Below are positions 38,241 through 44,641 of a stretch of DNA of 64,000 nucleotides, piece after piece (the stretch's first letter is position 1; each line of letters starts with the position of its first letter). The position numbers were made by a program, and so were the translations under genes. This stretch comes from a virus. The notes below the pieces were generated by a model. That model did not search any database and had not been told where the DNA came from. It saw only the letters and a program-made list of their open reading frames with translations. The stretch is taken from the IMG/VR virus record IMGVR_UViG_3300030838_000001, positions 124,001 through 188,000 of that record; one strand, given 5' to 3'.

Positions 38241-38919
38241 ATGGGAAAACTTAATTTAGAAATCCGTGACGCAGAAGGTGGAACTGATGCGAAGTTGTTA
38301 GTAAGTGTGATGAAAGAAATCTACACGAAAACAGCTAAAAATAACAATTTAGAATGTACAGTAGTTGAGGAAAGAAATGGGTTCGCCCATCTATGTCTTT
38401 AGCGGGGCTGATGTAGATAAAATATTCGGAAACGAAGTAGGAAACCACAGATGGCAAAGGGTACCGCCTACGGAAAAGAAGGGTAGAGTTCACACAAGTT
38501 CTATTACAGTTGCAATTCTAGGAGAAAACGATTATCAAGAGGTTGAAATATACCCAAGTGAATATCGCTTAGAAACAACAAGAGGAACAGGAAACGGTGG
38601 ACAACATAAGAATTCAACAGATTCTTGTGTGGTTGTAACTCACATTTCAACTGGAATAAAGGTTGTAAGAGATGGAAGGGACCAACATAAAAACAAAGCA
38701 GAAGCACTAAAAGAAATTCATTTAAGAGTTAATAATTTCTACAAGACAGGTCACGATGATGCGGCCAGTCAAGAAAGAAAAGAACAAATAGGTGACGGTG
38801 GACGTAGTGATAAAAGAAGAACGTATAGAGTTAAGGACTCATTAGTAATTGACCACGTAACGAATAAAACTGCTTCAATGAAGGACATATTAAGAGGTAA
38901 AATTGAACTATTATCATAA
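38241..38919 (+). CDS. prfA: RF1-type peptide chain release factor with programmed +1 frameshift
   Basis: Frame 1 starts at ATG 38241 and encodes LEIRDAEGGTDAKLLVSVM, the start of release-factor domain 2, up to CTT TAG (38397-38402). Skipping T38400 continues at AGC into the second frame: VFSGADVDK by analogy, HRWQRVPPTEKKGRVHTSS, then GTGNGGQHKNSTDS, DGRDQHKNKAEAL and GGRSDKRRTYRV. PPT is the PxT stop-recognition motif of RF1 (UAA/UAG), not the SPF of RF2; GGQ is intact. The fused product is about 225 residues and lacks RF domain 1. CTT-stop-C is the prfB-type shift site, here with UAG, which this factor itself would read. It overlaps the next gene by 1 nt. Confidence 0.85.
38377..38403 (+). 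promoter_or_regulatory. +1 frameshift signal: hairpin plus CTT-TAG-C
   Basis: ATGGG (38377-38381), TTCG loop, CCCAT (38386-38390) forms a perfect stem-loop 6 nt before the slippery CTTTAGC at 38397-38403. Geometry resembles the prfB frameshift window, in which slow termination favours slipping by one base. No clear prfB-style purine-rich Shine-Dalgarno-like stimulator is seen. Confidence 0.75.
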
Positions 38920-39734: not shown

Positions 39735-39897
39735 AAAACTTCCAATTAGACATTGGACCGATATAGGTAAATGTCTATTACATAGAGATATATCAGACCC
39801 ATATAATTTTATAGTTAATATGGAAATTGATAGAATGATTAATATGATGGTTTGGAGTAGGGTTGGTAGGACAATAGTTTTTCAGCCTACGATATGA
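39721..39897 (+). CDS. Small paralogue of the 38919 protein (58 aa)
   Basis: ATG 39721 is chosen because it aligns MVLGKKLPIRHWTDIG with the paralogue starts; an in-frame ATG at 39700 lies deeper in the previous gene. Ends in TGA overlapping the next start. Confidence 0.6.
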   Translation: MVLGKKLPIRHWTDIGKCLLHRDISDPYNFIVNMEIDRMINMMVWSRVGRTIVFQPTI

Positions 39898-40373
39898 GAG
39901 TAGCTGGAACAGGTCATAGACCTGATAAACTAGGTGGTTATTCAAATAAGATGCATTTAAATCTTGTTTCAATAGCAGAAGAAGCTCTTAAGAAGATTAA
40001 ACCAACTGAAGTTATATCAGGGATGGCGATGGGGTGGGATATGGCACTAGCGCAAGCGGCAATTAACCTTGGAATACCACTAATAGCGGCTGTTCCGTTC
40101 AAAGGACAAGAAAAAGCGTGGTTTGAGAAGACTCAAAAATATTATCATAGCTTACTATCTAAGGCGAAAGAGATTGTAATTGTTTCTGAAGGTGGATTTA
40201 CCAAGGGAAAGATGCAAATTAGGAATGAATGGATGGTTGATAACTGTGATTTGGTGTTGTCGATGCATAATGGCGACAAATTTGGTGGAACCTTCAACTG
40301 TATAACATACATTGAGAATAAAAAGAAACCAAATATTAATTTATATACAAAACTTAAAATAGAAAATGAATAA
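39894..40373 (+). CDS. SLOG-superfamily (DprA/YspA-like) protein
   Basis: 159 residues. MRVAGTGHRPDKLGGYS, VISGMAMGWDMALAQAAINL and IPLIAAVPF follow the Rossmann-like SLOG pattern of DprA/YpsA relatives (GTGHR, SGxAxGxD). Such proteins bind nucleotides or DNA and some are linked to anti-phage signalling. Overlaps neighbours on both sides by 4-8 nt. The exact subfamily is uncertain. Confidence 0.7.
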   Translation: MRVAGTGHRPDKLGGYSNKMHLNLVSIAEEALKKIKPTEVISGMAMGWDMALAQAAINLGIPLIAAVPFKGQEKAWFEKTQKYYHSLLSKAKEIVIVSEGGFTKGKMQIRNEWMVDNCDLVLSMHNGDKFGGTFNCITYIENKKKPNINLYTKLKIENE

Positions 40374-41679: not shown

Positions 41680-41754
41680 GGTTCGATAGCTTTAATTGGT
41701 CAGAGCAGCGGACTCTAAATCCGAAGGTTGTGGGTTCGAACCCCACTCGAATCA
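41680..41754 (+). tRNA. Amber-suppressor tRNA (anticodon CTA)
   Basis: Acceptor GGTTCGA/TCGAATC (one G:T), D-arm with TTGG, anticodon loop CTCTAAA giving anticodon CTA (reads UAG) with T33 and A37 in place, 5-nt variable loop, T-arm GTGGG/CCCAC with TTCGAAC, discriminator A73. The fold is fully canonical apart from a G27:A43 pair. The attached amino acid cannot be read from the sequence. It lies 179 nt upstream of a gene with TAG as third codon. Confidence 0.9.
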
Positions 41755-41767
41755 CAAACAATACCAA

Positions 41768-43522: not shown

Positions 43523-44641
43523 ATGGAAAAAAGACTTAGATTTGACATGGAGCTTCCGAAAGACATACGACTTATTCAAGAAACCTTTAAAAAACACGGT
43601 TTCAAGCTATATGTTGTTGGTGGAGCTGTTCGTGATGCTTACATGGGTCTTAGACCTAAAGATTACGATTTAGCTACGAATGCATTTCCTGGGGTGGTTG
43701 AGGATATTATGAGAGAACTTCACATAAGAACACTAGCTACTGGTAAAGCATTTGGAGTAATAAACGCCTTTACTAACGATGATGAGTACGAAATTGCTAC
43801 ATTCAGAGAAGATATTGGTAGCGGACGTAGACCTGAAGGTGTTGTTTTTACAACAATTGAAGGAGACGTTAAAAGACGTGACTTGACAATCAACGCATTG
43901 TTCTACGATATTGAAGAAGGATTGATTATCGACCTTGTAGGTGGACTTGATGATATTGACAACAAGGTAGTAAGAACTGTTGGTTCTGCAGAGGATAGAT
44001 TTGATGAAGATAGACTTAGAATCCTAAGAGCTGTTAGATTTGCTGGTAGATTCGGTTCAGATTTGGATATTGAAATTCAAGAAACACTTGAAAAATTCCC
44101 AAGTCTAGAAGAAATTTCAGGTGAAAGAATCAGAGATGAATTCATCAAAGGAATCAAATCAGCTAAGTCACTTAGACACTTCTTAAGAATGATTAAGAAA
44201 TTTCAACTATTTGCATGGATATTCCCTGAACTATCAGTAAGTGGTAGATTCTTTGAAACTAATGACCCAATAATAGCGATATCAATCCTATTAGCTCAAC
44301 ATAACAAGGCTGAATTGATGCCGAAGGTTCTAGACAAGCTAAAATACTCAAAAGATGAAATCAAAGCAATTATGTTTTTGAACTCTCTTTGTACTATAGA
44401 TGTAACAAATGTTATTGCAGTTAAAAGACAACAAAAAAACTCAGGTCTTAAAGATGCTCAAATTAGAGAGTTTGCTAGACTTGCGGGATTGAGTGGAATA
44501 CTAATTGATGCTTTCTTGGATTTTAATTTAAGTGTAAGTGGTAGTCAATTGATGGAAGAAAGAGGAATTCCACAGGGGCCTGAAGTAGGTAGACTTGTTG
44601 AACAAATTGAAAGAAATATTTTTACCAAGATGTTATTCTAA
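43523..44641 (+). CDS. cca: CCA tRNA nucleotidyltransferase / poly(A) polymerase family
   Basis: 372 residues. LYVVGGAVRDAYMGLRPKDYDLAT (29-52) gives the GG and the D-x-D catalytic pair, RRDLTINALFYD near 113 is motif B, and DRFDEDRLRILRAVRFAGRF near 152 is the C/D region of class II CCA-adding enzymes. The C-terminal helical tRNA-binding part is shorter than in many host enzymes. None of the phage tRNAs here encodes a full CCA end, so this enzyme is the logical partner of the tRNA cluster. Confidence 0.9.
   Translation: MEKRLRFDMELPKDIRLIQETFKKHGFKLYVVGGAVRDAYMGLRPKDYDLATNAFPGVVEDIMRELHIRTLATGKAFGVINAFTNDDEYEIATFREDIGSGRRPEGVVFTTIEGDVKRRDLTINALFYDIEEGLIIDLVGGLDDIDNKVVRTVGSAEDRFDEDRLRILRAVRFAGRFGSDLDIEIQETLEKFPSLEEISGERIRDEFIKGIKSAKSLRHFLRMIKKFQLFAWIFPELSVSGRFFETNDPIIAISILLAQHNKAELMPKVLDKLKYSKDEIKAIMFLNSLCTIDVTNVIAVKRQQKNSGLKDAQIREFARLAGLSGILIDAFLDFNLSVSGSQLMEERGIPQGPEVGRLVEQIERNIFTKMLF

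Follow-up and report, generated by a model that had tools for sequence, protein, structure and literature searches.

An internal stop codon as a putative termination sensor in phage genes for RF1-type release factors

Two overlapping open reading frames in 64,000 nt of viral DNA (positions 124,001 to 188,000 of IMG/VR record IMGVR_UViG_3300030838_000001; hereafter, the window) raise the question of whether the stop codon between them breaks a release factor gene or controls it. An earlier note, made from the sequence alone, had proposed that the two frames encode one RF1-like release factor through a +1 frameshift at CTT-TAG-C, by analogy with the autoregulated gene of bacterial RF2, prfB.

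A release factor gene split at CTT TAG C

The locus comprises the following features.

38241–38402, + strand: ORF1, 53 codons, release-factor domain 2 (EIRDAEGGTDAKLL...), with the putative sensor stop TAG at its end
38377–38390, + strand: AUGGG-UUCG-CCCAU hairpin with a 5-bp stem, upstream of the shift site; in this phage only and probably incidental
38397–38403, + strand: predicted shift site CTT TAG C, with the slippery CTT at 38397–38399, the sensor stop TAG at 38400–38402 and C as the +4 base
38401–38919, + strand: ORF2 in the +1 frame, encoding the rest of domain 2, the PPT loop, GGQ domain 3 and domain 4, and ending in TAA
38464–38472, + strand: PPT, the RF1-type PxT decoding tripeptide, inside HRWQRVPPTE
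38596–38604, + strand: GGQ catalytic motif, present in 79/79 family members

The product of ORF1 is MGKLNLEIRDAEGGTDAKLLVSVMKEIYTKTAKNNNLECTVVEERNGFAHLCL, terminated at CTT TAG. The +1 frame extends from AGC at 38401 to TAA at 38917–38919, and its translation onward from the junction is SGADVDKIFGNEVGNHRWQRVPPTEKKGRVHTS.... Joining the frames by reading CTTT as a single leucine gives a protein of 225 residues; the 15-mer of the shift site is unique within the window. According to Pfam, the joined protein matched PCRF with 57.6 bits versus 20.4 bits for ORF1 alone, and RF-1 was matched with 77.5 bits. Among the NCBIfam models, prfA was the best match to the joined protein (188 bits, spanning residues 5 to 223), ahead of prfB (106 bits) and prfH (73 bits), and solved RF1 structures were matched as well. 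The prfA score misses the equivalog cut-off of 400, and the alignment starts at position 107 of 347, domain 1 being missing. Together, these comparisons of predicted proteins confirmed that 38241–38919 is one gene, split by a stop, for a phage class-I release factor that is RF1-like in type and lacks domain 1. The proposal of two frames for one RF1-like factor, with PPT and GGQ in the +1 frame, thus held when the joined protein was compared with class I release factors.

We scanned IMG/VR twice with a query from downstream of the junction that did not contain the stop, which yielded 11 close and 80 broader relatives; further loci were added beyond these two scans. CTT TAG C and the +1 frame are kept in L060, L073, L075 and L082 (80%, 72%, 68% and 51% protein identity, respectively), which come from separate IMG/VR samples, and L072 and L080 also keep CTT TAG C, together with an in-frame TGA upstream. 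The site recurs in related phages, where the earlier note had suggested looking for it: CTTTAGCGG is without change across seven aligned divergent phages. Within the window's clade, where synonymous sites are unsaturated, dN/dS was 0.16–0.28 before the junction and 0.11–0.19 behind it, ratios by which both halves of the gene are under purifying selection. Since the junction sequence is invariant in seven phages and both halves are selected, the split is not a sequencing error.

More broadly, an assembly error or a decayed gene might be suspected, as a one-base shift would join the frames and the close relatives are all metagenomic; a DNA comparison with deposited phages gave a distant match to just a short piece of LR745206. 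This explanation is extremely improbable in view of the recurrence of the heptamer in divergent phages that were sampled separately, the dN/dS ratios on both sides of the junction and the recoding features, described below, in 77 of 79 family genes, where the in-frame stops are all in weak-stop contexts. For the family, these sequence data have refuted it already.

Alternatively, ORF2 could start independently inside ORF1, at ATG 38377 or TTG 38365, to give a short protein or a second chain. A +1-frame ATG does lie 24 bases upstream of AGC 38401, but it is not conserved: L060, L072 and L080 have TTG only and L092 has neither. Moreover, the short form would be without most of domain 2, many relatives with in-frame stops have the stop directly before the conserved part, and L016 and L106 encode the protein in one continuous frame. 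We rejected the internal start on its lack of conservation and consider this alternative improbable.

The GGG-UUCG-CCC hairpin to which the earlier note drew attention is indeed present in the window, but was not kept in L060 or L073 (z of −1.68 in the window, 0.13 in L060 and 0.29 in L073), and it was rejected as a shift stimulator for this reason. An internal Shine-Dalgarno sequence ∼3 bases before CTT was not found at the window's site. With neither this sequence nor a conserved hairpin, the efficiency of the shift could be low. Low prfB frameshifting has been reported in Flavobacterium johnsoniae (PMC12421855).

Internal stops across the phage family

We classified 79 distinct loci, nearly all of them on phage contigs; six were huge-phage records from a phage collection and one, L181, was from a Bacteroidetes genome bin. 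L081 was excluded because its frame is locally disturbed, and L273 and L274 were not classifiable by the script. Many release factor matches in the phage collection look bacterial (e.g., L175 and L179) and were used as outgroups. A stop codon occurs within the same short stretch in 77 of the 79 genes. The CTT-stop +1 junction is found in 48 genes (32 UGA, 15 UAG and 1 UAA), two of which also have an in-frame UGA, and 29 have solely in-frame UGA or UAG with no shift. By position (s1 or s2) and stop, the loci are distributed as follows.

CTT-TGA at s1, located in the strand that follows the first helix: 31 loci, typically CGG-AGG-GGT-CTT-TGA, RF2-type with an internal Shine-Dalgarno sequence
CTT with another stop at s1: TAG at 7 loci, TAA at 1 locus
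CTT-TGA beyond s1: 1 locus (L118)
CTT-TAG at s2, the window's type: 6 loci
In-frame TGA at s1 plus CTT-TAG at s2: 2 loci (L072, L080)
In-frame stops only: two TGA at 13 loci, one TGA at 13, TGA plus TAG at 2, TAG at 1
No stop, the protein encoded by an uninterrupted frame: 2 loci (L016, L106)

Additional loci outside the 79 show the same pattern. As far as these sequences indicate, the window's site represents one local form of a feature that is found across the family, is mostly UGA and often consists of an in-frame stop without a shift. At several positions, shift and read-through swap at the aligned residue, as in L134 (CTA TGA CTG versus CTT TGA C) and in L118 versus L122. Relatives with one continuous frame, which had been named as evidence against a programmed shift, do exist, but they amount to two basal ones. 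The bacterial genome hits include about 70 cellular genes for RF1 and RF2 that are open across the stretch; the sole hit with a stop there is a contig from a Mycoplasmataceae bin, and Mycoplasmataceae read TGA as tryptophan. Prevotella phage Lak-B5 (L180) encodes a SPY-type (RF2-like) release factor that, unlike the family, is continuous over the stretch read.

The tree that the earlier note had called for, built from the part behind the junction, placed the phage factors in one clade separate from cellular RF1 (SH-aLRT 98), with the stop-free L016 and L106 at the base of that clade. On this tree, TAG at s1 requires about seven separate changes. Around the window's gene on the tree, members with a shift and members with read-through are interspersed, with seven changes, two of them forced by well-supported branches; a single origin of CTT-TAG at s2 was not rejected (AU p of 0.08 with seven rows and 0.44 with four rows). 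The RF1-type Q is present in 67 of the 79 proteins. PPT and the replacement of V184 by W or F (Acinetobacter RF1 numbering, as for all residues here) each occur in 77, counts that are biased because the broader search pattern favoured both. Outside that pattern lay the stops and three further substitutions relative to the sampled cellular RF1s: E123D (78/79), A125K (75/79) and H197Q (40/79), His197 being fixed in the sampled cellular release factors.

The base after the in-frame stops was A or C in all 46 cases (43 TGA and 3 TAG), never T or G. Of 150 stops that end long frames nearby, 74 have A or C next and 76 have T or G (Fisher p 2.5e-12, uncorrected for kinship among the loci). Read-through is reported to be lowered by +4U (PMC5289835). 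An internal Shine-Dalgarno-like sequence precedes CTT at 37 of 40 s1 sites versus none of 8 s2 sites. The s1-shift loci have a mean of 53% GC and Shine-Dalgarno-like sequences at 26% of neighbouring frames; the corresponding values are 35% and 10% for in-frame loci, and 31% and 5% for s2-shift loci. The recoding mechanism goes with the type of host. Based on the genome bin of L181 and the low use of Shine-Dalgarno sequences, the hosts of the window's phage are probably Bacteroidota, whose ribosomes rely little on Shine-Dalgarno pairing.

Genetic code and suppressor tRNAs

The window's release factor gene sits among tRNAs, with DnaJ, ClpP and a CCA-adding enzyme (43523–44641) nearby, and a YpsA/SLOG-family protein is encoded just downstream (39894–40373). 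One of the tRNAs is a candidate suppressor.

41680–41755, + strand: tRNA with a CTA anticodon (ARAGORN 'Pyl'), a candidate amber suppressor found close to the gene in this clade, but not needed across the family

As CTA tRNAs are found in the window, G001, G002, G004, G005 and G006, the gene could conceivably be gated by a phage suppressor tRNA or a late switch of code. This is unlikely. Read-through of UAG in the window's frame would run into UGA three codons on, recoding signs were absent from the sampled genomes, and G007, which has an in-frame UGA and UAG, contains neither a CTA nor a TCA tRNA in its whole 318-kb record. The last result ruled out a suppressor tRNA as the general gate.

The code check covered 20-kb samples from eight genomes (those behind L003, L009, L010, L011, L013, L014, L015 and L017) and short flanks of the other in-frame genomes. 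In the eight sampled genomes, TGA and TAG terminate ordinary genes, and little coverage is gained when either is read as sense. Genome-wide reassignment of TGA or TAG was rejected for these eight on that small gain, and by this measure they use the standard code.

Several observations were made alongside. Reading TGA as sense lifts open-frame coverage from 0.63 to 0.92 in L122 and from 0.65 to 0.89 in L128, which are possible TGA-recoded phages. Well-formed CTA-anticodon tRNAs lie at L047:9-80, L050:18498-18570 and L051:972-1043, and more of them at L055:18020-18091, L056:18099-18172 and L059:12715-12786; these candidate amber suppressors recur in the phage clade with no TAG reassignment visible. 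The sequence scanned for tRNAs contained none with a UCA anticodon. A tRNA-like gene with a four-base CCTA anticodon (L053:18692-18768) is located ∼1.7 kb from the release factor gene of G006, the genome behind L009 contains a phage tmRNA (L050:14583-14937), and the 274-kb viral record G000 has 62 tRNA matches, many of them clustered.

Proposed mechanism and relation to known systems

The internal stop is apparently kept so that the factor is made only when stop codons are poorly read. For the window, we consider it likely that the gene is a termination-capacity switch with self-sensing at UAG, in which the full RF1-type factor would be made only when termination fails at the internal stop. 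A ribosome with its P site on CUU and its A site on UAG would either terminate, yielding the 53-residue dead-end peptide, or, were release slow, let Leu-tRNA slip from CUU to UUU and translate on in the +1 frame, which encodes PPT and GGQ. RF1-type factors read UAG, so the gene would respond to the combined RF1-type activity of host RF1 and the phage factor, being off when this is high and on when it is low; the completed factor would restore release and close the shift again. GC-rich phage relatives would use RF2-like CUU-UGA-C with an internal Shine-Dalgarno sequence, and phages in which such sequences are rare would rely either on CUU-UAG-C with no Shine-Dalgarno sequence or on weak-context in-frame stops (UGA or UAG). 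Where a gene has two UGA codons, read-through would have to be strong. We infer the fused product, the slip, the stop specificity and the feedback from sequence.

An RF1-type factor is not expected to read UGA; unless the phage factor does, the activity sensed in the UGA relatives would be that of host RF2. As most relatives carry UGA, strict self-feedback cannot account for the family in its entirety. The RF1 autoregulation originally proposed thus retains its UAG site and its RF1-type product, from which self-regulation may be inferred in the window, but does not extend to a family that is mostly UGA and often shiftless.

The stop may instead sense general termination capacity, not the factor's own level, the product being a backup factor that may also read UGA and would be made whenever class-I release activity of any kind falls short. 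We hold this possible rather than probable. UGA, UAG and UAA interchange at s1 (31, 7 and 1 loci, with the repeated UAG changes on the tree), one RF-1-domain gene was found per searched genome, and the substitutions at residues 123, 125, 184 and 197, in the decoding domain, are specific to the family; on the other hand, the decoding residues are otherwise RF1-type, allowing for the bias of the search pattern towards W/F and PPT, and UGA may prevail merely as the leakiest stop. Tentatively, the conserved thing might be the termination sensor itself, stop identity and bypass mode varying, and the factor may serve all stops in an emergency, when the host's own release factors are in short supply.

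Self-sensing at UAG, the reading we prefer for the window, has partial counterparts. With bacterial prfB (PMC12421855, PMC5009743), the phage genes share the CTT slippery codon, a release factor as product and a stop mostly followed by C; most phage relatives, unlike the window's site, also share the internal Shine-Dalgarno sequence ∼3 bases before CTT. Whereas prfB encodes RF2 and uses UGA (rarely UAA), the window encodes an RF1-type factor without domain 1 and uses UAG at a site inside domain 2. In-frame stops occur in many phage relatives and are unknown in prfB. According to a 2025 survey (PMC12421855), autoregulatory frameshifting is found in prfB, not prfA, and UAG in none of 8,164 prfB motifs; a 2016 review (PMC5009743) described in-frame read-through in RF2 genes and an RF1-UAG counterpart as unknown, and noted only an amoeba giant virus, the one treated in PMC3521657.

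The phage factor shares PxT, GGQ and domains 2 to 4 with RF1 (prfA), from which it differs in being without domain 1 and in having PPT, W/F184, E123D and A125K. To our knowledge, programmed frameshifting is known in no prfA. PrfH (RFH) has a similar length (∼200 aa) and likewise no domain 1, but the phage factor scores 72.9 bits against the prfH cut-off of 166.65 and retains the PxT loop. RtcB (PF01139) had no match in G000, a record that may be incomplete.

The closest viral parallel is eRF1 of Mimivirus (R726) and Megavirus (mg280), also class-I release factors: the Mimivirus gene uses UGA-C read-through and then CUU-UAG-C (PMC3521657). UGA followed by C is a further shared feature. The combination of UGA read-through with CUU-UAG-C is found in Mimivirus, L072 and L080, whereas the window has, by its sequence, the frameshift site alone. 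The two amoeba viruses encode factors of eukaryotic/archaeal type and were tested experimentally; the phage family is broad, belongs to the bacterial RF1 family, not eRF1, and is known here from sequence. We found no published RF1 with frameshift control at UAG in the open-licence literature, consistent with the earlier note and in agreement with PMC12421855 and PMC5009743; a paper on huge phages lists release factors 1 and 2, with frameshifts unmentioned (PMC7162821). The idea of a device rebuilt for RF1 stands as an RF1 case undescribed in that literature, but the device is not new to viruses, given the Mimivirus eRF1 precedent (PMC3521657).

Genes split by a stop in this way are easily missed by annotation. 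The phage family appears to hold both RF2-style in-frame read-through and RF1-UAG control, repeatedly switching stop and mechanism. The parallel with the amoeba giant viruses suggests that large viruses have more than once placed their release factors under the control of failing termination, and a testable question is raised: is the supply of release factors limiting in phage-infected cells?
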